This document shows positions 7,127 through 36,534 of a stretch of 38,153 nucleotides of DNA, piece after piece; position 1 is the first letter of the stretch, and every line of letters begins with the position of its first letter. The notes under the pieces are model-generated. The model ran no database searches. It saw only the letters and a program-made list of their open reading frames with translations, and was not told the origin of the DNA. The stretch comes from Candidatus Levyibacteriota bacterium. Lineage in GTDB: Bacteria; Patescibacteriota; Microgenomatia; Levybacterales; UBA12049. Made by a program: the position numbers and the translations under genes. The DNA is taken from assembly GCA_016204465.1 (NCBI GenBank), contig JACQKQ010000023.1, forward strand, positions 1 through 38,153. Reading direction: 5' to 3'.

Positions 7127-7150
7127 AAAGGAAATACGCGTGCCGTCGGC

Positions 7151-7183
7151 ATAGCCTTGAAAGGCGTCCCCTTTTGAGGCTAG
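7151..7183 (-). repeat. REP hairpin copy R1
   Basis: Arms atagccttgaaagg (7151-7164) and ccttttgaggctag (7170-7183) around loop cgtcc. Same loop (inverse of ggacg) and arms as the hairpins that bracket the RAYT transposase at 11637 and 12372; it lies in the duplicated arm of the inverted repeat. Confidence 0.85.
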
Positions 7184-7306
7184 AATTAGCGTATCGTGGT
7201 GGCAAGGAATTGTCAAGACTTAACAAGCCTTAACAAGGCTTAAAAAGACTTAAATGATTGTTTGTTTTCGTTCGTAGGACTCCGGTTATGATAGAATATA
7301 TTTGCA

Positions 7307-7361
7307 ATGGAAGTAAAACAGCAAATAAAAACGGCAATTACAAACGCGCTTAAAGAATTAG
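7307..7361 (+). pseudogene. Duplicated 5' fragment of argS
   Basis: An ATG at 7307 starts MEVKQQIKTAITNALKEL, identical to residues 1-18 of the real ArgS (start 11533, minus strand). The frame then leaves argS homology at 7361, just where the real gene has a GC-rich palindrome insert, and ends ~30 codons later in non-homologous sequence. The copied promoter may still be active and would transcribe rightward toward the 3' end of ndk. Confidence 0.85.
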
Positions 7362-9754: not shown

Positions 9755-11533
9755 CTACATGCGCTCGGGGGCTTTTATGCCTAAGAGATTGAGGCTATTT
9801 TTAATCGTTTGGCCTACAGCCGCGGTCAAAGCCACTCTAAAACCACTATTAGCACTCTCAAGGATGGGGTGCTTTTGGTAAAAAAGGTTAAAGGCTTGCG
9901 AAAGATCAAAAAGATAGATGCACAAAAGGCTGGGTGAGAAGCTTTTGGCCGCTTCTTGCACGACTTCGGGGAATTTAGTAAGCAGTCTTAAGAGCTGCAG
10001 TTCTTCGTTTTCTAATATATTTACGTTTTGATTTATGGTTTTGATCTTTGAACTTTGAACTTTAATCTTGGCAAGAACGCTTTGTGTGCGTGCAAAAGTG
10101 TACTGTACATACGGACCGCTATCGCCGTCTAAAGAGACCGATTTATCAATATCAAACGCCACATCCTGCCCGGTTCCCACCCTAAGCACTGAATACTTGA
10201 TTGCACCTATTGCAATAGCATGAGTAACCGCCTCCCGTTCTTGCGTTTTGATTCTCCCCTCTTCCATTAACTTTGCAACGCTTGATTTGACTGTATCGAC
10301 AAGCCAATCAACTGTTAGCACCTCGCCGGTTCTCGAGCTCATTTTTCTACCTACAAGGTGTACCATGCCCATTGAAAGGTGGTGCTCTTTGCCTTTAAAC
10401 TTCTCCGGATCCAAAAGCTCAAGCGCTTTAAGCACAACACGAAAGTACCCTGTCTGCTCGCTTGCCACGACGTGAATATTTCTGTCAAAAGGAAATGCCT
10501 TGTACTGCTCAAATCCAAGACATATGTCTTTTCCCTCGTAGGTTGGGTAGCCTGCAGCTGTCACAAACACCCGGTTGTGCAGACCATACTTTTTCCCAGG
10601 AAAGATAACCGCGCCTTCGCTCTCCTCAAAGACTTTCCCCACATTCTTTAAGACAATCGCCTTACCGCAGTCTGAAACTTCGCTCTCAAAGAAGAGTCGG
10701 TCAAACGTTGTGTCAAACTTCTTGTATAGATCGTCAAAGTAATCCAAACTCCATTGACGTGTCGTTTTGTAGATTTCCTCTATATCGGCTACCTTACTGT
10801 AAAGCTTTGCATTTAACCCGTCGATTTTGCTCTTGTGTGCGTCGTACTCCTTATTCCCAATCACGTAAGCCTCGCCTAAGAAACGCGCTTTCTCGCGGTT
10901 GCTCTTTTTACTTATATCTTCAAGTGTTACTCCGCGGTCGGAAAGCAGTTTTTGCACGCCAAAGATTGCCTTGGCAACGTGCGGACCTATGTCGCCTTGA
11001 TAATTTGCCCGAAAAACGTGAGCTCTACCGTACGAGAAGATTCGAGCCAGCGCCTCGCCGGTGATGAGCGTTCGCATATGGCCGATATGCATCTCCTTGT
11101 GGGTATTGGGATGGGCATACTCCACCATTATCCGCTCGCCCTTAAGAGAATCAGATTTGCCGTACCCATCTTTCTCTGTCAAAACATTTCGTAATGTATC
11201 AATTAATTGCTGCTCTGAAAGCCAGAAGTTAATAAAACCGGGAGTGATCGCTTCTGCGCGATCGAGGAAGTTGAGAGTTGAGACTTGAGAGTTGAAAATG
11301 CTTGCAATCTTTTGCCCGAGTTCTAAGGGGCTCTTAAAACCTTTATTCCTAATTCCTAATTCCTTATTCCCAAATATTGCCATGGCAATATTCGAACTGT
11401 AGTCTCCATGGCTTGAAAGCTTCGGATGCTCGATATACGGCTCAATACCTTCAATTCCTTGCCTGCCGGCAGGCAGACCTAATTCTTTAAGCGCGTTTGT
11501 AATTGCCGTTTTTATTTGCTGTTTTACTTCCAT
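9755..11533 (-). CDS. argS: Arginyl-tRNA synthetase
   Basis: 592 residues. Charges tRNA-Arg. Visible: class I HIGH motif in MHIGHMR (149-152) after VEYAHPNTHKE, KMSKS-like MSSRTGEV, and the C-terminal GIKAPERM typical of ArgRS. Four low-complexity inserts stand out: GLPAGRQG (residues 19-26) from a GC-rich palindrome at 11461-11476; GNKELGIRNKG (55-65) from attccta words at 11337-11372; NSQVSTLNF (81-89) from ttgagag words at 11270-11297; and KVQSSKIKTINQ near the C-terminus from tttgaac words at 10038-10071. All keep the frame. The first 18 codons plus promoter are duplicated at 7307-7361. A weak promoter (TAGAAT or TATGAT near 11543-11553) lies about 10 nt before the ATG. Confidence 0.96.
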   Translation of the reverse strand: MEVKQQIKTAITNALKELGLPAGRQGIEGIEPYIEHPKLSSHGDYSSNIAMAIFGNKELGIRNKGFKSPLELGQKIASIFNSQVSTLNFLDRAEAITPGFINFWLSEQQLIDTLRNVLTEKDGYGKSDSLKGERIMVEYAHPNTHKEMHIGHMRTLITGEALARIFSYGRAHVFRANYQGDIGPHVAKAIFGVQKLLSDRGVTLEDISKKSNREKARFLGEAYVIGNKEYDAHKSKIDGLNAKLYSKVADIEEIYKTTRQWSLDYFDDLYKKFDTTFDRLFFESEVSDCGKAIVLKNVGKVFEESEGAVIFPGKKYGLHNRVFVTAAGYPTYEGKDICLGFEQYKAFPFDRNIHVVASEQTGYFRVVLKALELLDPEKFKGKEHHLSMGMVHLVGRKMSSRTGEVLTVDWLVDTVKSSVAKLMEEGRIKTQEREAVTHAIAIGAIKYSVLRVGTGQDVAFDIDKSVSLDGDSGPYVQYTFARTQSVLAKIKVQSSKIKTINQNVNILENEELQLLRLLTKFPEVVQEAAKSFSPSLLCIYLFDLSQAFNLFYQKHPILESANSGFRVALTAAVGQTIKNSLNLLGIKAPERM

Positions 11534-11676
11534 TGCAAATATATTCTATCATAACCGGAGTCCTACGAACGAAAACAAACAATCATTTAAGTCTTGTTAA
11601 GTCTTGACAATTCCTTGCCACCACGATACACTAATTCTAGCCTCAAAAGGGGACGCCTTTCAAAGCTATGCCGACG
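11479..11676 (-). repeat. Inverted repeat arm 2 (argS 5' end and upstream region)
   Basis: Partner of 7144-7361 in inverse orientation. It covers the first 18 argS codons, the argS promoter, the REP hairpin at 11637-11669 and the first three codons of the RAYT gene. With arm 1 it encloses ndk, the M16 gene, the structured region and most of argS. Confidence 0.92.
11637..11669 (+). repeat. REP hairpin copy R2 (left of RAYT)
   Basis: Arms ctagcctcaaaagg (11637-11650) and cctttcaaagctat (11656-11669) around loop ggacg. It ends in the ATG of the transposase gene, so element boundary and gene start coincide. Confidence 0.85.
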
Positions 11677-12375
11677 AAAAACTCTATTAAATCTTACGTT
11701 GAGGACGGTTATTATCATATTTATAATCGCGGCGTCGAGAAACGAAAAATCTTTCAAAGCCAACAAGACTACGCAGTTTTTCTCTCCTATCTCATAGAAT
11801 ACTTAATGCCCAAAAATGAAAAAGAACTATACAAACGGCTTGCCGACCCCGCCATCTCTTACAAAGAGAAAGCAAACATTATAAGAGCGTTGCGCATGAA
11901 TAACTTTGCTGAAGAAATTATATTACTTACTTATTGTCTTATGCCAAATCACTTTCACTTTCTCCTTAAACAAAAACACGCAGGATCAATTGATACATTC
12001 ATGAACTCGCTTGCAACACGGTACACAATGTACTTTAACAAAAAATATAAGCGGGTTGGCCCTCTCTATCAAGATGTTTATAAGGCCGTTCTCGTGGGGA
12101 GCGAAGAGCAATTTCTTCACCTTTCTCGCTATATTCACCGCAACCCCCTCAACGTGAACGCGCTAAGAAATAGAACCAAAGAAGCAGTGCTTATGAGTCA
12201 ACCATCCTCGTATGGAGAATATCTTGGGTTAAGAAATACTGCGTGGATACACCCGCAAGAAATCCTTAGTTACTTCTCGAAGATAAATCCTGCACTTTCA
12301 TACCCCTCGTTTGTAGAACAGCAAGACGATATCGAGCGCATAGAAAAGGTAAGCATAGACCTCGATGACCACTAG
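11668..12375 (+). CDS. REP-associated HUH transposase (RAYT, Y1 family)
   Basis: 235 residues. The Y1 fold is marked by YYHIYNRG near the N-terminus, the HUH metal motif His95-Phe-His97 in CLMPNHFHFLL, and the catalytic Tyr155 in RYIHRNPL. These enzymes nick single-stranded DNA at REP hairpins. The gene is bracketed by REP copies: R2 ends at its ATG, and its TAG stop lies inside R3 (12372-12404). Two more copies (7151, 16417) lie away from the gene. The close linkage of enzyme and hairpins marks a REPtron. The upstream region is shared with argS and is part of the inverted repeat. All catalytic residues are intact, so activity is plausible. Confidence 0.93.
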   Translation: MPTKNSIKSYVEDGYYHIYNRGVEKRKIFQSQQDYAVFLSYLIEYLMPKNEKELYKRLADPAISYKEKANIIRALRMNNFAEEIILLTYCLMPNHFHFLLKQKHAGSIDTFMNSLATRYTMYFNKKYKRVGPLYQDVYKAVLVGSEEQFLHLSRYIHRNPLNVNALRNRTKEAVLMSQPSSYGEYLGLRNTAWIHPQEILSYFSKINPALSYPSFVEQQDDIERIEKVSIDLDDH

Positions 12376-12404
12376 CCTCAAAAGGGGACGCCTTTTGAGG
12401 CTAG
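12372..12404 (+). repeat. REP hairpin copy R3 (right of RAYT), perfect palindrome
   Basis: Perfect 14-bp arms ctagcctcaaaagg (12372-12385) and ccttttgaggctag (12391-12404) around loop ggacg. This is the most regular copy and contains the stop codon of the transposase. Confidence 0.92.
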
Positions 12405-16416: not shown

Positions 16417-16450
16417 CTTAGCCTCAAAAGGCGTCCCCTTTCAAGGCTAA
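16417..16450 (-). repeat. REP hairpin copy R4 (solo)
   Basis: Arms ttagcctcaaaagg (16418-16431) and cctttcaaggctaa (16437-16450) around loop cgtcc. A dispersed copy 4 kb from the RAYT gene with no transposase beside it, which shows that REP copies occur apart from the enzyme. The rest of 16451-16578 shows no gene. Confidence 0.85.
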
Positions 16451-19439: not shown

Positions 19440-19535
19440 AAAGAATTTCAAATAATTACCAATTTCAAATTTCCAATATCCAATGACTCCTTACGTGATT
19501 TGAAATTTGATATTTGAAATTATACATTGGAAATT
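19440..19535. repeat. Word-repeat palindrome between leuS and comEA
   Basis: Left arm: aatttcaaat, caatttcaaatttccaat; right arm: gatttgaaatttgatatttg and cattggaaattt, the inverse complement of the same words. It fills the whole spacer. Confidence 0.65.
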
Positions 19536-19539
19536 TTCG

Positions 19540-22218
19540 TCACACTGTGACGAAGTTAATAAGCTTTCCCTCAACGTACACCACTTTTTTAATTTTCTTT
19601 CCTTCTAGATATTTTTGCACCTTAGCACTCTCTTTTGCCAACTGCTCAATGGTTTTCTGACCTCTGACCTCTGACCTCTGACCTCTGAACACGTCGCGCA
19701 CCTTTCCATTCACTTGCACGACAATAGTTACTTCTTTCTCTACCAATAATGAAGCATCAAACTCCGGCCACTTCTGATCGTGAACAGAATTATGGTGCGC
19801 CGGCTGGCGCCACGTCAAACGTGGCTGGCGGATTTTCTCCTTGATTCCTAATTCCTGATTCCTTATTCTTTGAAAAAGCTCTTCTGCCGCGTGTGGAGCA
19901 AATGGTGCAAGAATAAGGAAGAACTGCTTTGCGTCTTGTACCGATAATCCCTCCTTATCATCCTGCCAGTCGTTTACAAACTCCATCATGGCCGAAACAG
20001 CAGTGTTAAACTTCATCCATTCTATATCTTCGCCAACCTTTTTTATAGTTTTTTGAAGCTTTTGCAATAATCCTGCTGAAGTTTTTTCTGCAGACGCCTT
20101 AATTATCCCTAAGTGCCAAACTCTCTTTAGAAACCGAAAACAGCCCTCAACCGACGCCTCGTTCCAGGCAATTGTCTGGTCAAACGGCCCCATAAACATT
20201 TCGTATATCCTAAGGGTATCTGCGCCAAACTTCTTGACAATTTCGTCGGGATTAATGACATTACCAAAAGACTTGCTCATTTTTCTTCCGTCGGGTCCAA
20301 GGACGATACCGTGCGAACGGCGCTTGGCGTATGGTTCGGGTGCTGGCGCAACACCAATATCAAATAAAAACTTGTAGACAAAGCGTGAATACAATAAATG
20401 CAAGGTAGTGTGTTCAAAGCCGCCTTGATAGATGTCAACCGGTATCCAATAGCTAATAACCTCCTGATTTTCTTTGAAGATATTTTCTTCCCTGGTTGAC
20501 TTTGAACTTTGAACTCCAAGCTTATTTGCGAACAAATAAGCAAGGTAATACCAATTCGATCCAGCCCAATTTGGCATAGTGTCTGTTTCCCGCCGAGCTT
20601 TTCCGCCGCAGTTTGGACAAGCAACGTTTACCCAATCCGAAACAGTTGCAAGTGGCGATTCGCCTGTTGTTGCCGGCTCGTACTGCTCAAGATACGGCAA
20701 CTCAACAGGTAACTGCTCTTCTGGAACAGGAACGATTGCGTAATCCTTTCCCTTAATATTTGAAATTTGAAATTTGAAATTTGAAATTTTGTTTGTTGCG
20801 CAGTTTGCGCAATAAACAACTGGGATAGGTTCTCCCCAATAGTGTTGCCTACTAAACACCCAATCACGAAGGTGGTAACTGACAACTTTTTCTCCCCAGC
20901 CTTTCGAAACGATATGATCCATTATTTTCTCTTTGGCCGCCATAATGTCAAGGCCATCTAAAAATTCTGAATTCACCATTGTCCCAGCTGCTTCCTGAAC
21001 CTGTTCAGGCTTTGTAATTTCTGAAGTGTCACCGTCCGGCCCGACAACAACACGGACAATTGGGATATCCATGGCCTTGGCAAACTCAAAATCTCTAATA
21101 TCGTGGCCGGGAACACCGATAACAGCACCAGTGCCAACGTGGCCGAGCACGAAGTCGCCAATGTAGATTGGCAGCTTTTTACCATTGAGATCGTTGACTG
21201 CATAGAAACCTGTAAATACCCCAGTTTTTTTTCTCCCCTCTGCGATCCGCTCTATCTCGCTTTTGTTCTTTGCCTTCTCAACGTATGTGCGTATCTCTTC
21301 TAATTTTGCACTTTGCACTCTTGCCCTGAGTTTTGTCGAAGGGTTGAATTTTGAACTTAGGAGCGAAGCGACGAATGGGTGCTCTGGCCCCAAAACTATA
21401 AACGTCGCCCCAAAATTCGTATCCGGCCGTGTCGTGAAACATTCTACTTGATACTTAATACCTAATACTTGATACGTAATGTTGATTCCCTCTTTTCTTC
21501 CAATCCAATTAACCTGCTGCTGGGCTACCATTTCTGGGTAATCAACGGTTTTTAAATCCTCTAAAAGCCTGTCTGCGTACTTTGTAATTGCCAAAAGCCA
21601 CTGCTTGCGCATGCGCTTTTCTGTCTTTGCGCCGCAGCGCTCGTGCGTGCCGTTTGGCAAAACTTCCTCGTCTGCTAATGTTGTTTTACACGATGGGCAC
21701 CAGTTGACTGGCACGTCAGCTTGGTAGGCCAAGCCTTTCTTTAGAAACTGCAAGAAAATCCACTGCGTCCATTTGTAATACTTTGGATCAGTTGTATTTA
21801 CTTCTCTATTCCAATCAAACGACAATCCAAGGCTTTTGATCTGGCGTTTGAAGCTAGCAATATTCTCCGAAACTGCCACGGATGGGTGAATTTTATTTTT
21901 AATCGCGTAGTTTTCAGCCGGCAAACCAAACGCATCCCAGCCAATTGGATACAAAACGTTAAAACCCTCCATGCGCTTTTTGCGAGCGTACGCGTCCATG
22001 GCCGACCACGAACGAACGTGCCCCACGTGCAAACCCGCGCCCGAAGGATAGGGAAATTCAATAAGGACATAAAACTTCTCTGCCTTATCTCCGCCAGCTG
22101 GCGGATCTTTTGCTTGATAAAACCCCTCTTTTTCCCAGGCCTTCTGCCACTTTTCTTCTATTGAGCCTGGATCGTAGTTTTGCTCGCCCCGCGAAGCCTC
22201 GCCTGTCTTTTTTACCAT
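19540..22218 (-). CDS. leuS: Leucyl-tRNA synthetase
   Basis: 892 residues. Visible: HIGH motif in LHVGHVRSW, FGLPAENYA, zinc-ribbon cysteines (WCPSC...RCG; CANC; CPNCGG), editing domain (TRPDTNFGATF) and KMSKS in GRKMSKSFGN. The gene carries many in-frame low-complexity inserts not seen in usual LeuRS: EASRGEQ near the start (22183-22207), PPAGG (22087-22107), TYQVLGIKYQV (21446-21480), FNPSTKLRARVQ (21324-21343), SNFKFQISN (20755-20792), VQSSKST (20496-20517), RNQELGIKEK (19841-19868), RLTWRQPAH (19799-19832) and GQRSEVRGQK (19658-19690). Each comes from a different tandem word or palindrome. The catalytic motifs are intact, so the inserts must be tolerated in surface loops. Confidence 0.96.
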   Translation of the reverse strand: MVKKTGEASRGEQNYDPGSIEEKWQKAWEKEGFYQAKDPPAGGDKAEKFYVLIEFPYPSGAGLHVGHVRSWSAMDAYARKKRMEGFNVLYPIGWDAFGLPAENYAIKNKIHPSVAVSENIASFKRQIKSLGLSFDWNREVNTTDPKYYKWTQWIFLQFLKKGLAYQADVPVNWCPSCKTTLADEEVLPNGTHERCGAKTEKRMRKQWLLAITKYADRLLEDLKTVDYPEMVAQQQVNWIGRKEGINITYQVLGIKYQVECFTTRPDTNFGATFIVLGPEHPFVASLLSSKFNPSTKLRARVQSAKLEEIRTYVEKAKNKSEIERIAEGRKKTGVFTGFYAVNDLNGKKLPIYIGDFVLGHVGTGAVIGVPGHDIRDFEFAKAMDIPIVRVVVGPDGDTSEITKPEQVQEAAGTMVNSEFLDGLDIMAAKEKIMDHIVSKGWGEKVVSYHLRDWVFSRQHYWGEPIPVVYCANCATNKISNFKFQISNIKGKDYAIVPVPEEQLPVELPYLEQYEPATTGESPLATVSDWVNVACPNCGGKARRETDTMPNWAGSNWYYLAYLFANKLGVQSSKSTREENIFKENQEVISYWIPVDIYQGGFEHTTLHLLYSRFVYKFLFDIGVAPAPEPYAKRRSHGIVLGPDGRKMSKSFGNVINPDEIVKKFGADTLRIYEMFMGPFDQTIAWNEASVEGCFRFLKRVWHLGIIKASAEKTSAGLLQKLQKTIKKVGEDIEWMKFNTAVSAMMEFVNDWQDDKEGLSVQDAKQFFLILAPFAPHAAEELFQRIRNQELGIKEKIRQPRLTWRQPAHHNSVHDQKWPEFDASLLVEKEVTIVVQVNGKVRDVFRGQRSEVRGQKTIEQLAKESAKVQKYLEGKKIKKVVYVEGKLINFVTV

Positions 22219-25999: not shown

Positions 26000-28900
26000 A
26001 TGACCGATTTAATACAAGCCTTTATTACACATTTAAAGAATCTTCCACAACCTGCCTCGAGCGCAACGGTGAAAAACTACGTTGCAGATATTAGGCAGTT
26101 TGTATATTGGTTTGAACAACAAAATCAAAGATCTTTTCTTCCCCAACTTGTAACCCCGCAAATATTTGACCAATACATAGCCTATCGGCGTGATCAAGAC
26201 GGACTTTCTTTACCAAGCATAAAACGCCACAAAGCATCTATTAGAAAATTCTTTGTGTTCTTACAAGATACGGGCACCATCGAGCATAGTCTTATTGCAC
26301 AAGAAGCAAAAATCTCTAAAACAAGCACGGATTTATGGCATTTGAGGTCATTTAAAGATTATCTTTACGAAAATCGGCTTAAGAGGAATACTATAACAAA
26401 CTATATCGCAGATATTCAACAATTTCTTGAGTGGCTCGAAGCTGTTACCGGTGCGCAAGACGCCTTTCTTGTGAGCGAAAAAGATCCGCTGCAAAAGATC
26501 TCTTCGTTTATTGTTGAGGAGTACAAAACAAGACTCCTTGGGGCAGGAATCTCGCCTGCATCGGTAAACCGAAAACTCTCCTCCATCCGCAAGTATACAG
26601 CTTGGCTCTATCAGCAAGGGATTATTGGCAAGTATGTAACGTTTTCCGACGTCGTTGTCGCTTCGCCACCGAACCTTTCGCCTTTGCCATCTGGCGGCCC
26701 CACACACGAAATCAACACCTTACCTGCTCTTCCCCCAGTGCGGCTTGTGCAGAAAGCAGTGCAAGCCGCCGATTCAGTATTTGAATGGCTCATCGTTGCA
26801 CCTGCAGCACGGGTTGTCGACCAGGCAATCTACGCGCTCTGGTACCTCAAAGGAAAACCAATCGCAACAACACCCAAATCCACGCTTCGGCCGCCTCTGT
26901 ACGACTTCACTATCGGAAACATCAAAAAAAGCCTGTACGCCCCGCATGCTATTTCCATAAAAGATGCTCCTTTGCATAAAAAATTGTTCTTTCATATACA
27001 TCAAAGTAGGCCAAAATGGTATAAAAAATATCATGAGTACGCCGTTGTTCATTATTTTCACTTTGCTATCTTAATTATTTCTATGGCTATTATAGGTGTA
27101 AGCCTAGGCAAAATTCTTTTCCCTACACCCAAGCAGGTTGTTATGGCAAATGCAGAGCCTGTCTCCCCGCCGCGTGTTCTTTCTTTTCAAGGAAGACTTA
27201 CCGATCCATCTGACAATCCAATTACACAGACTAAGTCAATTCGCTTCCGACTTTACAATTCCCAAACAGCTTCTGGCTCAGCCATGCTTTGGGAAGAAAT
27301 GCAAGATATCAAACCCGATCTAAATGGTATATTTGCCGTGCAGCTTGGCAAAAAAACAGCGATTGATCAGGCTGTTTTTGGCAACAACGACAGCGTTTAT
27401 CTTGGCATTGCAGTAGGATCCGATGAGGAGTTGCGGCCACGACACCAGCTTGCTACTGTTGCATATGCCACAAATGCCGAACTTTTACAAGGTCTGTTGC
27501 CAATCACGCAAGCTGGAGCCGGTAGCAAAAACGTTGTGCTTGCTTTAGATTCAACCGGAAATCTTTCAATCGGCGGCAGCGCAAACCCAATCTTTCAGGC
27601 AACAGGGGGAGAGTTTAAGCTCTCCGGTAAGTCGCTTGTGCTTGCAACAAATGTAGGTTCTAACGGTAACGTTTCTCTGTCTCCCGACGGTAAAGGTTTC
27701 ATCGACGCCCTTGCACCCATTCAGAATAGTTCAAATAATAACAACCTTGCAGCGGTACCGGGAGCAGTCGAAATCGATGATATATTAGCAATTTACGCAA
27801 CATCAAGTGCACATTCTGCTCTTGTTGTCGAGCAAAGCGGCACAGGACCAATCATTAGCGCTTCGACAAGCGGGACTGCTAAATTCACTCTTGGTAACGA
27901 TGGATCGGGGTATTTTGCCGGAAAACTTGGGATTGGTGTATCTTCAGCGTCGGCCAAACTTACTGTTGACGGCGCAAGTATAGGCAAAGCGCTTGCTATC
28001 CTTAATGAATCAGGCGACCAAAATATTCTCGTCGGCTCTGCTTCAGGCACGCTTAAGTTTTACTTTGATAGAAGCGGTAATTTAACGACAGCAAACGGAT
28101 CATTGTGGAAACCGACGTCTGATTCAACCACAGGGTTGCGAATTGGAAACTCGTCAGGGACATCGTTTGTTACATTTGACACTAGTAACAGTAGGGTTGG
28201 AATAGGTACTACCCCAAACTTTAAGCTCGATGTCACTGACAGCCAAAGCGCTACAGTTTCGGCAATGATTACTAACAGCAGTACAGATACAGATGCCGAT
28301 GTGCTTGCCCTTAAGCTTGGTATTACAACCGACCCAGCTGTAACGAACCGATTTTTAACATTTCTCAATGGCAATGGGACAATTGTTGGCAAGGTGCAAG
28401 GCAACGGCGCAAGCGGCGTTTCATACGCAACAGCGGGCGTAGACTTTGCCGAGTATTTTAAGAAACAAGATCAAACCGAAATCTTTTCTCCTTACGACCT
28501 TGTTTGCCTTGGAAATTCTGGTGTGACGAAGTGTGCGGGTAAAACACAAGTTATTGTTGGCGTTATTTCAAACCAAGCAGGGTTTATTGGCGGCGTAGAC
28601 CACGAAGGTGACCCAAAGTTTGTCCTTGTTGGTCTTAACGGACAACTGCGGGTGCGGGTAAAGAGCGAAACAATAAACGTTGGTGATCCATTAACAACGA
28701 GTTTAATACAATCTGTTGCAGAAAAAGCAACGACTGCCGGACAAATTGTCGGATACGCTATTGAATCATTTGACCCCACTAAAGACAGTAAAGATACTAT
28801 ATTAATAAGCGTTTCTCCCTCTTGGTATGACCCTAACGTTTTCCTAACACACACCGGCGACCTTAACGTTGTAAAAGACCAATCCAAAGTTGCCAAGCCT

Positions 28901-30208
28901 TCTTACTTTAGCGTACAAACAACATTAGGACAACTGGTCACAAAAGTTGGTGCATTTAGTAAGGCTGTGATTGGCGTCCTTGAGGTTGGCGCATTGAAAG
29001 CAAGCGAAATTTCAGCGCAGGAGATTATTTCGCCGATTGCTTCGATTGATCGTGTACGAACCGATGTTATCTCTCCTCTCTCATCAGAACAGCTTACGAT
29101 TCGATTGGCGTCCTCCTCTCTCTCGGCAGTTGAAATACAGAACGCGTCAGGCGCTGCAGTTGCTCGCATTGATCAAGAGGGCAATGCTTCATTTTCAGGG
29201 CAGTTGCTAAGCAAGGAGCTTACCGTACAAAATAACGCAAGCATCAGCGGGGTGCTTTACGCGCAGAAGATTATTGCAGACGAAGTTGAATTTCCTGTTG
29301 TTGCCACAAAAGCAAACCTTGCACAAGATTTCGAAACGCCAGTAGAATCGGCAACAGCCTCTGCAACTCTTGGCGAGACAATAGAGGCTAATTTCGCAAC
29401 CTTTACACAAGGGCTTATCGCATTTGGCCCAAGTAGTTTTGGCACGACTGCTATAAACGGTCAATTGTCTGTTGGTTCACCCACAGGGGGCTTGATACTT
29501 GCTGACAACGCGATTAATGTCTTAGGTGCTTCACTTGAACTACAACCCCTTAGGCAGGGAGATGTATCATTCTTAGGCGGTTTGGTGCAAATTGATATAG
29601 AAGGAAATTTGCGTGTTGATGGAAACGCGACATTTGGAAAGGACGTAACGGTAAAAGGGGAGATTTTTGCCAACGTCATTGCCCCAATCCCAGATAAAGA
29701 TTTAGTAATAAAACTTGAAGGAAGTAGAAGTGCCACATGTGCTACGAGCACAACGGGAAATGATGCTTGTGATACCAATGATACTTCTGATACTCGTGGT
29801 ACTCAATTCATTGTCCAGGATGCCTCCGGCAGCGGTGTTTTCAGTCTTGATCAGCAAGGCAATCTGACTGCTTCGGGATCAGCCAATGTCGCTAGCCTAC
29901 TCACGCAAACACTTCAAATTGCCCGAAATGCCCAAGCTGACACATCGCTTACTGAAACCACTGCGACAAGCTCTGCAGGCACAGCAACCATCTTGCCGGG
30001 AGAAAAGGAACGCACCGTATACACACCGTTTGTGAAAGAGAGTTCGCTTATCTACATTTCCCCAACCTCAAACACCTACGGCAAAAATCCCTACATTGCC
30101 AGACAAACGCCAAGCGACAGTGAACATGGTATCCTTGGCTCGTTTACGGTTGCGGTAGAAGAACGGCTGTCAAAACCAATTTCGCTAAACTGGTGGGTCG
30201 TAAATTAA
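26000..30208 (+). CDS. Giant membrane protein: two integrase SAM-like domains, TM helix, tail-fibre-like ectodomain
   Basis: 1402 residues. Residues ~3-95 and ~113-212 are two copies of the core-binding, SAM-like N-terminal domain of tyrosine recombinases (ATVKNYVADIRQFVYWFEQQ; NTITNYIADIQQFLEWLEAV; ASVNRKLSSIRKYTAWLYQQ). No catalytic R..HxxR..Y domain follows. A proline-rich linker leads to a transmembrane helix at ~353-374. Then comes a beta-rich region with VLSFQGRLTDPSDNPI, phage-fibre-like repeats (VGIGTTPNFKLDV, LGIGVSSASAKLTVDG), a DFAEYF...GVISNQAGFIGGV domain near 815-940, and a terminal LNWWVV. Such fibre domains are common in CPR surface proteins. With the helix, the N-terminus should be cytoplasmic and able to bind DNA, the rest outside. 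The segment CDTNDTSDTRGTQ (~29760-29810) is a word-repeat insert. Confidence 0.8.
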   Translation: MTDLIQAFITHLKNLPQPASSATVKNYVADIRQFVYWFEQQNQRSFLPQLVTPQIFDQYIAYRRDQDGLSLPSIKRHKASIRKFFVFLQDTGTIEHSLIAQEAKISKTSTDLWHLRSFKDYLYENRLKRNTITNYIADIQQFLEWLEAVTGAQDAFLVSEKDPLQKISSFIVEEYKTRLLGAGISPASVNRKLSSIRKYTAWLYQQGIIGKYVTFSDVVVASPPNLSPLPSGGPTHEINTLPALPPVRLVQKAVQAADSVFEWLIVAPAARVVDQAIYALWYLKGKPIATTPKSTLRPPLYDFTIGNIKKSLYAPHAISIKDAPLHKKLFFHIHQSRPKWYKKYHEYAVVHYFHFAILIISMAIIGVSLGKILFPTPKQVVMANAEPVSPPRVLSFQGRLTDPSDNPITQTKSIRFRLYNSQTASGSAMLWEEMQDIKPDLNGIFAVQLGKKTAIDQAVFGNNDSVYLGIAVGSDEELRPRHQLATVAYATNAELLQGLLPITQAGAGSKNVVLALDSTGNLSIGGSANPIFQATGGEFKLSGKSLVLATNVGSNGNVSLSPDGKGFIDALAPIQNSSNNNNLAAVPGAVEIDDILAIYATSSAHSALVVEQSGTGPIISASTSGTAKFTLGNDGSGYFAGKLGIGVSSASAKLTVDGASIGKALAILNESGDQNILVGSASGTLKFYFDRSGNLTTANGSLWKPTSDSTTGLRIGNSSGTSFVTFDTSNSRVGIGTTPNFKLDVTDSQSATVSAMITNSSTDTDADVLALKLGITTDPAVTNRFLTFLNGNGTIVGKVQGNGASGVSYATAGVDFAEYFKKQDQTEIFSPYDLVCLGNSGVTKCAGKTQVIVGVISNQAGFIGGVDHEGDPKFVLVGLNGQLRVRVKSETINVGDPLTTSLIQSVAEKATTAGQIVGYAIESFDPTKDSKDTILISVSPSWYDPNVFLTHTGDLNVVKDQSKVAKPSYFSVQTTLGQLVTKVGAFSKAVIGVLEVGALKASEISAQEIISPIASIDRVRTDVISPLSSEQLTIRLASSSLSAVEIQNASGAAVARIDQEGNASFSGQLLSKELTVQNNASISGVLYAQKIIADEVEFPVVATKANLAQDFETPVESATASATLGETIEANFATFTQGLIAFGPSSFGTTAINGQLSVGSPTGGLILADNAINVLGASLELQPLRQGDVSFLGGLVQIDIEGNLRVDGNATFGKDVTVKGEIFANVIAPIPDKDLVIKLEGSRSATCATSTTGNDACDTNDTSDTRGTQFIVQDASGSGVFSLDQQGNLTASGSANVASLLTQTLQIARNAQADTSLTETTATSSAGTATILPGEKERTVYTPFVKESSLIYISPTSNTYGKNPYIARQTPSDSEHGILGSFTVAVEERLSKPISLNWWVVN

Positions 30209-34190: not shown

Positions 34191-34636
34191 AAGTACCACA
34201 GGTATCACGAGCTTATTTTAGAACGGTATCTAAAGACAAGGTATGCAGCTTCTGAACGGACTTTATCAAACATTTGATAGTCTTCCTCATTCCAATACTT
34301 AAGGATAAGACAAATTTCGCTTTGCGCTTCAAGTTCTAAAAGTGACGTTTCCGATATTTCCATGAAATGGAGTTTTTCTTTTTTGCTCCTTTTGAGGTAC
34401 CCCTCAACAAAATTTGACATTGCGGAAACAATAGCACGCCTCATTTGCGATTTGAGGCCAAATTCCTCTGAAGAGGGAAGCTTTTCCGTCAGCCTATATG
34501 TCAAAACAAGAAGATCACGAAGTTTTTGCCAGAGAATGAGGTTGTGATAGCTTTTACCGGATTTATCCATGGTTTAAGCATACCATACTTTATTCCCGTG
34601 GTACTTGTGATACTTTTGGTACTCGTGGTACTTTTC
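34191..34636. repeat. Inverted word repeats flanking the four-helix-bundle gene
   Basis: Left: aaagtaccacaggtatcacg (34191-34210). Right: gtggtacttgtgatac, ttttggtactcgtggtac (34598-34632). They are inverse complements of the same gatac/ggtac words. The 13-mer tactcgtggtact at 34620-34632 also occurs exactly in the giant gene at 29791-29803. Confidence 0.6.
34205..34570 (-). CDS. S23-type four-helix-bundle protein
   Basis: 121 residues, the size and pattern of the 23S rRNA intervening-sequence (S23) / four-helix-bundle family: NLILWQKLRDLLVLTYRLTE, LPSSEEFGLKSQMRRA, SNFVEGYLKRSKKEKLHFM, ETSLLELEAQSEICLILKY. The family is basic, pentameric where studied, and includes Avd, the helper of diversity-generating retroelements; its role in free-standing form is unknown. 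No reverse transcriptase is nearby. The gene is bracketed by inverted word repeats, as a small cassette would be. Confidence 0.9.
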   Translation of the reverse strand: MDKSGKSYHNLILWQKLRDLLVLTYRLTEKLPSSEEFGLKSQMRRAIVSAMSNFVEGYLKRSKKEKLHFMEISETSLLELEAQSEICLILKYWNEEDYQMFDKVRSEAAYLVFRYRSKISS

Positions 34637-35148: not shown

Positions 35149-35868
35149 TCATATCGCTCGGCGTATTTCTCTTTCCAACGTATTCTTAAAATCTCGAATA
35201 ATTAGCCAATGGGTTTTTGGGAGAAATAGCTTTAATTCATGTTCAAAGTTAAGATCACTGTTTTGGAGTACTTGCAGTACTTGATGTAAAATATCTTTTT
35301 TCTGAGGAGGCAGTAGGTTTGCTCTCATGATAAAATAGAGATCATAAAAGTCTCGAGGTTTCTTTCTGTTTAAAAGCGCCTGAATTTTTTCATCTACTAA
35401 CTGCTCTTTTGCTAAAGCAAAGATATTGTAGGCTGGTACATAATCGCTTGCGATAGCCAGTATCTCTCCCCGCTTCTCTCCAACTCTAAGAGATATTTCA
35501 AGTTGCATATGCATGACCTGTTCAAAAGCATTGAACGAGATGATTGCCAAAAATCCTCCGGATGTTGGCGTCGACTCTTTCAACGAAACTGAAATGTTTT
35601 CTCTTTCTAGTTGAGCAAGTGTACCAATGAGTAACGATTCAATTGCTTTCACATCAATCATGGAAGCTGTAAAATCTAAGTCTTCTGAGAAACGGGGGCT
35701 TTTATATAAAATTCGTAGCGCTGTGCCTCCTTTGAAATAGATGGTTGAGGCTTGCTCTTGTTGGTAAAAATATGACAAAAAGAGATGCTGAAAATATTCC
35801 CGTCTGATATTTGGTTCTATTGTTTGGTACTTCGTCGCTAATTTTTTAATTTGTTCTTCGCTAATCAT
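35149..35868 (-). CDS. AbiEii-type nucleotidyltransferase toxin
   Basis: 239 residues. Family motifs: GGTAL (FKGGTALRILY), the nucleotidyltransferase SEDLDF (PRFSEDLDF), the Lys motif LVDEKIQALLNR and KPRDFYDLYFI. AbiEii toxins of type IV toxin-antitoxin systems pyrophosphorylate or nucleotidylate tRNA acceptor ends. The start overlaps the stop of the upstream antitoxin gene by 4 nt, the usual coupling. It may defend against phage or stabilise this region. Confidence 0.92.
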   Translation of the reverse strand: MISEEQIKKLATKYQTIEPNIRREYFQHLFLSYFYQQEQASTIYFKGGTALRILYKSPRFSEDLDFTASMIDVKAIESLLIGTLAQLERENISVSLKESTPTSGGFLAIISFNAFEQVMHMQLEISLRVGEKRGEILAIASDYVPAYNIFALAKEQLVDEKIQALLNRKKPRDFYDLYFIMRANLLPPQKKDILHQVLQVLQNSDLNFEHELKLFLPKTHWLIIRDFKNTLEREIRRAI

Positions 35869-36485
35869 ACTGATCCTCTATAATCACGCCTGAAAACATC
35901 TTCTACAAGGTGACTTAGGCGTTTTCTCTCAAACAATGTTGCATAGAAAAGCGCTTTTTGCTTCTCTAAAGAGTGCACGCTTAACCTATCATTCTTCCCT
36001 CTTTTACCAAGTGAAACAAAGTAGAGGTAATCAACCAGTGCCTTCTCAGGTTCAGCTATGAAAAAATTCCTCCCCCCTTTTGTTAAGAGTTGATATCCAG
36101 TAAAAGCGTGTCTTTTTATCGCAGAGTAGGAAAACGCTCTTCCCTGCACATCAAATTCGCGAGTTGGCTTGGTGGTCGCTGAAGTGATTGAATAGACCAT
36201 CTCCGGCATAATACCATAATAAGTAAGTGCATATTCAAAAGAAAGGTACGATGGCTGATAGAGCTTATTGGCAATCTCTTGCTCGCCTGGCATGTCTGTT
36301 TGTAGCGTATATAATCCCTTTTTTAGACGTAAGAATAACCCACGCTTACTCTCCTCTTCCAAAAAGTATTTTGCTCTGTCTTTGGATAGCCCAAACAGCC
36401 TCTCAAACTCCCAAGGAGAAAAAGCGTAGATGTTTTTCTTGCGAAGCTCCTCTCTCACTAATAATGGTTTCAGTAAAGTATACAT
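35865..36485 (-). CDS. AbiEi-type antitoxin/regulator
   Basis: 206 residues from the ATG at 36485; a TTG at 36506 lies in the -10 box and is not used. N-terminal winged helix (YAFSPWEFERLFGLSKDRAKYFLEEESKRGLFLRLKKGLYTL by positions ~20-62) then an AbiEi C-terminal-like domain (LSFEYALTYYGIMPEMVYS, KALVDYLYF). Known AbiEi proteins bind their own promoter and repress it. The promoter is at 36506-36534. A toxin gene follows with 4-nt overlap. Confidence 0.88.
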   Translation of the reverse strand: MYTLLKPLLVREELRKKNIYAFSPWEFERLFGLSKDRAKYFLEEESKRGLFLRLKKGLYTLQTDMPGEQEIANKLYQPSYLSFEYALTYYGIMPEMVYSITSATTKPTREFDVQGRAFSYSAIKRHAFTGYQLLTKGGRNFFIAEPEKALVDYLYFVSLGKRGKNDRLSVHSLEKQKALFYATLFERKRLSHLVEDVFRRDYRGSV

Positions 36486-36505
36486 TTTTGCCCTTTTCTG
36501 AAACA

Positions 36506-36534
36506 ATTCTATACCATACTTCTTTGTTTGTCAA
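36506..36534 (-). promoter_or_regulatory. Promoter of the AbiE operon
   Basis: Minus strand TTGACA (36529-36534), 17-bp spacer, TAGAAT (36506-36511); ATG 20 nt further, with an aaaggg that could act as a weak ribosome site. Likely self-repressed by the antitoxin. Confidence 0.8.

Follow-up and report, generated by a model that had tools for sequence, protein, structure and literature searches.

Tandem arrays with a 7-bp period and near-constant size in the leucyl-tRNA synthetase gene of a Levyibacteriota bacterium and its relatives

The gene for leucyl-tRNA synthetase (LeuRS) analyzed here contains eight repeat-derived segments, of which five are tandem arrays that share a 7-bp period and three are palindromic; the enzyme that it encodes is intact. 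Arrays of the same period were found across the genome and in relatives, typically with a total size of about 32 bp. We tentatively ascribe them to self-templated copying of a local 7-mer followed by purifying selection, a reading that we hold with somewhat less than even confidence. The window, namely the whole stretch of 38,153 nucleotides that was analyzed, is one contig (C47) of an 881-kb assembly of 50 contigs, the size and gene content of which suggest a Patescibacteria/CPR genome.

Results

The LeuRS gene and its repeat-derived segments

The LeuRS open reading frame encodes 892 amino acids without an internal stop, and its product was matched over the whole length by the NCBIfam profile leuS_bact (TIGR00396) with 885.9 bits against a cut-off of 548.4. 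An AlphaFold2 model, for which the alignment of 26 sequences (this LeuRS and those of 25 relatives) was the input, had a mean pLDDT of 85.1 and a pTM of 0.79 and matched the solved LeuRS structures 2bte_A (TM 0.77) and 1h3n. The model indicates that the LeuRS fold is kept despite the repeat-derived segments. A search for near-identical LeuRS DNA on plasmids gave no match. The features of the region are as follows.

19540-22218, minus strand: leuS, bacterial-type leucyl-tRNA synthetase, 892 aa (profile match, fold model)
19656-19688, minus strand: exact heptamer array TCTGACC, 33 bp, aa 844-855 FRGQRSEVRGQK; length-neutral replacement in a C-terminal hairpin
19798-19834, minus strand: GC-rich palindromic segment encoding RQPRLTWRQPA; part of the insert at aa 785-807
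19844-19871, minus strand: imperfect heptamer array ATTCCTA/ATTCCTG, aa 783-792 QRIRNQELGI; insert
20499-20515, minus strand: short heptamer array ACTTTGA, 17 bp, aa 568-574 GVQSSKS; within a 12-residue insert
20753-20789, minus strand: heptamer array ATTTGAA (32 bp exact), KISNFKFQISNIK; +21 bp relative to the relative G003
21305-21358, minus strand: composite insert KFNPSTKLRARVQSA, in which heptamer-like short words flank the palindrome CCCTGAGTTTTGTCGAAGGG (21324-21343)
21445-21480, minus strand: imperfect heptamer array GTATYAR, aa 247-258, TYQVLGIKYQV; length-neutral, at the start of the editing domain
22090-22105, minus strand: palindrome TCCGCCAGCTGGCGGA encoding PPAGG; 4-aa insert
19454-19484, plus strand: intergenic imperfect heptamer array of 31 bp, downstream of leuS
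19498-19521, plus strand: second intergenic array, inverted relative to that at 19454-19484 (hairpin-like pair)

When leuS was scanned at lags 4-30, arrays appeared only at lag 7 and its harmonics 14 and 21. With a lag-7 score of 10 or more as the threshold, 991 of 1000 codon-order shuffles contained no array and the others contained one, and 1000 synonymous, protein-preserving shuffles gave 0-2 arrays, compared with five in the real gene. Thus, chance does not explain the arrays of leuS.

Several of these sequences recur in the own genome. Three units of the ATTTGAA word were found at 8 places, the class of the CCCTGAGTTTTGTCGAAGGG palindrome at 4 places, and the 14-bp core of the PPAGG palindrome at 14 places (reversed control, 0); the 31-mer of the array at 19454-19484 recurs in inverted orientation at L062 2367-2397. 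The own assembly, which is 88.8% complete, contains no second TCTGACCTCTGACC site and so no exact donor for the TCTGACC array; the word class is represented by one imperfect array (L046 14538).

Insertion and length-neutral replacement

We aligned LeuRS with the LeuRS of the 25 relatives (40-68% identical; 68-69% for the closest) and with Thermus LeuRS (1h3n). Compared with the relatives, net insertion was found at five sites, aa 39-42, 290-302, 474-493, 569-580 and about 785-807. The comparison with Thermus LeuRS gave the same five regions, and at aa 39-42 the difference was only three residues. At site 248, five of the six array-bearing genes have 23 residues, and the median of the array-free genes is also 23. 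At site 847, array-bearing genes have 31 residues (5/7) or 29 residues (2/7), with an array-free median of 31. Because the local length equals the array-free median, TYQVLGIKYQV (aa 248-258) and GQRSEVRGQK (aa 846-855) are not inserts. Since the unit is 7 bp, the reading frame stays open only when the length changes by 21 bp or, as at these two sites, when the replacement is length-neutral.

The segments with a pLDDT below 50 in the LeuRS model were 1-12, 290-294, 482-490, 569-575 and 795-808. The first is the N-terminus, and all four internal ones coincide with insert sites. Low confidence thus marks four of the five true inserts, and segments of this kind tolerate insertion. Low model confidence together with length variation suggests that the insert sites are surface loops. 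Both length-neutral arrays lie in or beside confidently modelled strands that form hairpins (241-251 / 257-262 and 839-847).

The first-pass annotation had described an otherwise canonical LeuRS, with its motifs intact, interrupted by about nine in-frame inserts and had named six peptides derived from repeats. Its observation was largely right, since all six peptides were found in place and the enzyme under the repeats is intact. The repeat-derived segments are real, but they number eight and cause net insertion at five sites. The label "insert" was partly wrong: the alignment with relatives bears out the five insert sites, whereas two of the six named peptides, TYQVLGIKYQV and GQRSEVRGQK, are replacements of ordinary local length. 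When the segments are mapped on a structure model, a check that it had proposed, four of the five inserts fall in probable surface loops, and the two replacements are in confidently modelled hairpins. PPAGG and RQPRLTWRQPA were not named in it, and it overlooked that the arrays have a 7-bp period and a size in common and that the same loops contain other words in relatives.

Arrays in the LeuRS genes of relatives

The 26 LeuRS genes contain 46 arrays, with at least one in 14 of them, while six control lags gave 0-2 each and codon shuffles a mean of 0.2. The arrays cluster at about ten loops, and their words differ between genomes. On a quick LeuRS tree built without the columns concerned, sites 248, 480, 707 and 847 each showed at least five presence changes, a count in which gains and losses are pooled.

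In three LeuRS events the gene was longer by 7 aa. FKFQISN represents an addition of 7 aa (21 bp) compared with G003, where a shorter, imperfect array occupies this position; at aa 290, G003 is in turn 7 aa longer than G026; and L032 has 7 aa more at aa 570, a site at which 17 of the 23 genes without an array there have exactly 25 residues. Judging from the sequences, the word seed was plausibly local in all three. L015 has at aa 186 a 33-bp array, the word of which does not match the local sequence; this loop is otherwise near-constant, with 19-20 residues in 24 of 24 array-free genes.

Period and placement of arrays in the genome

The scanned part of the own genome, counted with its N positions, comprises 408,755 bases or 46% of the assembly, and a score of 11 or more was taken as an array. 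Lag 7 gave 70 arrays, whereas eleven control lags that are not harmonics of 7 gave 0-12 each. Exact runs of at least 12 occurred at 4.6 per 100 kb at lag 7; over lags 2-22, with the harmonics 14 and 21 excepted, the other lags gave 0-0.5. In this excess of a 7-bp tandem unit over other periods the arrays agree with heptanucleotide SSRs. No arrays were found in 50 kb of E. coli K-12.

Forty-two of the 70 arrays are within ORFs of 90 codons or more. Ten array-bearing ORFs were profiled, and six were above the curated cut-off, namely ValRS, which carries four arrays, topoisomerase I, SufS, DnaX, PEP synthase and DprA. Two had matches below the cut-off (a MurT-like ligase, 247 bits; a sugar kinase, 115 bits), one had a weak IctB-like match (42 bits), and one had no match. 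The ArgRS gene of the window (9755-11533) has three heptamer arrays and a palindrome-derived peptide, LPAGRQG.

Leaving out 39 arrays that touch ORF edges, we counted 158 score-11 arrays in ORFs (about 11 per 100 kb) and 76 between them (about 39 per 100 kb). The arrays are thus about 3.5 times rarer per base in ORFs, which fits purifying filtering. Exact arrays (run of 18 or more) are not depleted in this way: 34 of 37 were in ORFs, which make up 88.5% of the sequence, so that a visible filtering of new arrays from genes is not supported. The 70 arrays at lag 7 support an active process, as had been proposed from leuS, and show that it is genome-wide; the strong purifying filtering proposed with it agrees with the score-11 arrays and not with the exact ones.

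Array size

In 1.62 Mb from 22 genomes we found 37 exact lag-7 runs of at least 18 matches, 34 in ORFs and 3 outside. Thirty-two of them have 22-28 matches, which corresponds to 29-35 bp. Imperfect single arrays peak at 31-34 bp, both in ORFs (62/174) and in intergenic regions (37/76). Duplicate arrays from overlapping loci were removed from the counts of single arrays and from those of word sharing, phase and load. Intergenic single arrays are free of frame constraint and show the same peak; we therefore rejected frame filtering as its sole cause. This peak in both compartments differs from the open-ended copy-number distribution of SSRs. The TCTGACC word forms long arrays in many unrelated phyla (L139-L218, among the matches listed), and these arrays, among the matches listed and with a minimum of 21 bp, measure 22-171 bp without a clear peak.

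Words, phases and inverted pairs

The arrays use dozens of different words. Of 75 arrays from other genomes, 38 share a word class with the own genome; for random genomic heptamers, 4.35 would be expected. Words are shared in 205 of 4273 pairs within genomes (4.8%) versus 591 of 25,862 pairs between genomes (2.3%), and the maximum after shuffling was 3.65%. Arrays of the same word also share their start and end phase, with 512 concordant pairs compared with 322 +/- 24 simulated (maximum 374 in 60 runs). An irregular 31-mer is identical in the own genome (G000) and in G026, which belong to two genera. Some intergenic arrays form inverted, hairpin-like pairs. The word sharing, the shared phases and the inverted pairs pull towards copied elements and against purely local copying.

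In several genomes we also observed hairpin-like intergenic elements of about 100 bp, in which two inverted AATT-N3 arrays of about 31 bp surround an inner palindrome:

L062 3755-3785, L009 752-783, L092, L116, L128 and L129: hairpin-like AATT-N3 elements

In intergenic AATT-word arrays, mismatches to the array consensus were 54/855 in the AATT core versus 102/584 in the 3-nt spacer, a comparison that may be biased because the core was chosen by consensus.

Candidate makers of the arrays

Direct repeats of 5 bp or more flanked 0 of 360 arrays, and a search for a flank motif found no fixed one. That is, the target-site duplication or fixed flank of REP/RAYT elements or MITEs is absent from the arrays, the only segments compared in this respect. 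In load tests on small samples, uncorrected for phylogeny or multiple testing, array load was unrelated to the presence of reverse transcriptase (p = 0.94), was higher with a Y1 transposase than without it (13.6 vs 3.4 per 100 kb pooled, p = 0.015), and was lower in the MutS carriers (6 of the 41 genomes sampled; 1.5 arrays per 100 kb pooled) than in the other 35 (12.6; p = 0.013). Eight genomes that lack MutS were array-free in 19-60 kb (G005, G019, G029, G030, G033, G035, G040 and G053).

Telomerase-like or DGR reverse transcriptases are a lead for repeats made by reverse transcription. The own genome and the array carriers G003, G026, G055 and G056 gave no match to PF00078 (RVT_1), and reverse transcriptase was rejected as the maker. 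The Y1 transposase (PF01797) was rejected as the sole mover of arrays because the carriers G007, G017 and G032 had no match to it; G050 had five matches to Y1, and 60 kb of its sequence contained no array. A cognate transposase thus does not accompany the arrays wherever they are.

Other features of the window

A REP-associated tyrosine transposase-like gene lies at 11668-12375 (profile match below the curated cut-off; PF01797 also matches), and palindromic repeats of the TAGCCTCAAAAGGGGACGCCTTTTGAGGCTA type are near it, at 7152-7182, 11638-11668, 12373-12403 and 16419-16449. Positions 7144-7361 and 11479-11676 form a long inverted repeat, about 4.1 kb apart (128 nt at 98% and 90 nt at 97%). 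A four-helix bundle protein (TIGR02436) with a weak Avd-like match is encoded at 34205-34570, in a genome that has no reverse transcriptase match. In the gene pair at 35149-36506, the upstream gene weakly matches an AbiEi-type antitoxin model (1.9e-6, below the cut-off), and its partner is presumably an AbiEii-type nucleotidyltransferase, as judged from a motif. The 1402-aa ORF at 26000-30208 seems to have two recombinase-like N-terminal domains followed by a large surface-type protein.

Discussion

Origin of the arrays

The results can be considered from the following proposal. A genome-wide process would produce tandem arrays that repeat every 7 bp and reach about 32 bp in total, or four units and a part. 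In this process, a DNA-synthesis complex with a preferred 7-nt realignment step would start from a short seed at the site, a single 7-mer together with a few bases that match, and copy it repeatedly in one short patch. In genes, the product would survive only if the frame stays open (+21 bp or no net change) and the loop is tolerant, and arrays would decay and then be re-made at the same loop with another word. We infer the polymerase step, and likewise that the lack of MutS would let the products persist. In favor of self-templated copying are the lag-7 spectrum, the exact runs of 29-35 bp and the intergenic size peak; the plausibly local words and the +21 bp in three LeuRS events, with no second copy of the TCTGACC array; and the absence of an excess of target duplications and of a flank motif, the unmatched reverse transcriptase and Y1 in array carriers, and the smaller number of arrays with MutS. 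Against it, the shared words and phases are not predicted by purely local copying without a strong sequence preference, the array at aa 186 of L015 has a non-local word, the length-neutral arrays at aa 248 and 847 are unexplained by simple slippage, and there are the eight array-free genomes lacking MutS and the positive correlation of load with Y1 as well.

Alternatively, the arrays of about 32 bp may be short selfish sequences with defined ends that are copied between places, by ectopic conversion, by annealing of short single strands or by DNA uptake, and that either overwrite or insert. Words and phases shared between genomes, the identical irregular 31-mer in two genera, the higher word sharing within genomes, the overwriting at two LeuRS sites, the 33-bp insertion in L015 and the inverted intergenic pairs all speak for such elements. 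We nevertheless consider them rather unlikely, with the TCTGACC array lacking an exact donor in its own assembly, dozens of words in use, neither flank motif nor target duplication, and no obligatory mobiliser found. Self-templated 7-nt copying is modestly favored over copied-in elements. It is improbable that arrays and palindromes together are MITE-like elements of the RPE or REP/RAYT kind, moved by a transposase and tolerated when in frame. The transposase-like gene of the window, palindromes such as CCGCCAGCTGGCGG at 14 places (control, 0) and the correlation of Y1 with array load would suit them, but single arrays are not palindromes, three genomes have arrays without a Y1 match, one with five Y1 matches has none in 60 kb, and target duplication is absent. 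This origin may hold for the palindromic segments only.

Even less probable, in our opinion, is that the arrays are functional DNA sites, kept because a protein binds cores every 7 bp, with genes as incidental carriers. The better conservation of the AATT core than of the spacer and the near-constant size, about three helical turns, would agree with binding sites, yet many words are without AATT, no flank motif is found, and the coding arrays lie in variable loops. The arrays might also be ordinary heptanucleotide SSRs produced by open-ended replication slippage, with nothing special here; in most prokaryote genomes, heptanucleotides are reported to be the commonest class of long SSR (PMC4679880, PMC4692102), and the TCTGACC word is present in many phyla. 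The peak at 31-34 bp where no frame constraint acts, compared with 22-171 bp for TCTGACC in other phyla (among the matches listed), and the length-neutral replacement make this reading doubtful, about as much as a transposase-moved origin or slightly more so.

We also considered, as an idea that is unlikely though less so than the last three readings, that a dedicated and hitherto undescribed DNA-synthesis activity writes the arrays with a fixed 7-nt step and a fixed product length of about 32 bp in many words, sometimes overwriting without a change of length. Through this activity, essential proteins (LeuRS, ValRS and ArgRS among them) would have their surface loops altered continually.

Relation to known repeats

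The comparisons below refer to the available parts of the cited sources. Bacterial heptanucleotide SSRs, surveyed by Mrazek in 2007, occur in many genomes, and a link to the length of DNA contacted by the polymerase has been proposed (PMC4679880, PMC4692102). The present arrays share with them the 7-bp unit and the presence in many genomes, and differ in their near-constant total size, their many words per genome and their recurrent placement in housekeeping genes. The TAACTGA repeats of Beggiatoaceae are likewise short heptamer direct repeats with few copies per set, but they have one word and lie mostly just upstream of start codons (PMC4679880), whereas here there are many words and many arrays are within ORFs. 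Rickettsia palindromic elements (RPEs; Ogata 2000) are palindromes of about 150 bp in about ten families, inserted in frame into unrelated genes (PMC10969869). In-frame insertion of repeat DNA into unrelated genes is common to both cases, but the arrays here measure about 32 bp and are tandem repeats, not palindromes, and so are not of the RPE kind. The palindromic segments of LeuRS, which are short, may be of that kind, although they resemble RPEs in principle only. In the amino-acid tandem repeats of Borgs, too, DNA repeated in tandem gives rise in frame to new disordered parts of proteins (PMC9879509), but the unit lengths of these repeats in ORFs are divisible by three, unlike the 7-bp unit here. 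In the openly accessible literature we found no description of size-defined heptamer arrays in this bacterial group. Heptamer repeats and in-frame palindromes are of known kinds, and the fixed size and the loop hotspots in housekeeping genes look new.

Significance

The arrays show how, in one bacterial group, loops of universal enzymes can be rewritten repeatedly. The repeat-derived segments are not conserved domains, and alignments and phylogenies that include them will be disturbed. Should complete genomes bear out the fixed period and size, these would be the fingerprint of a specific enzyme step, and the question of why long repeats in bacteria prefer seven bases would become testable.
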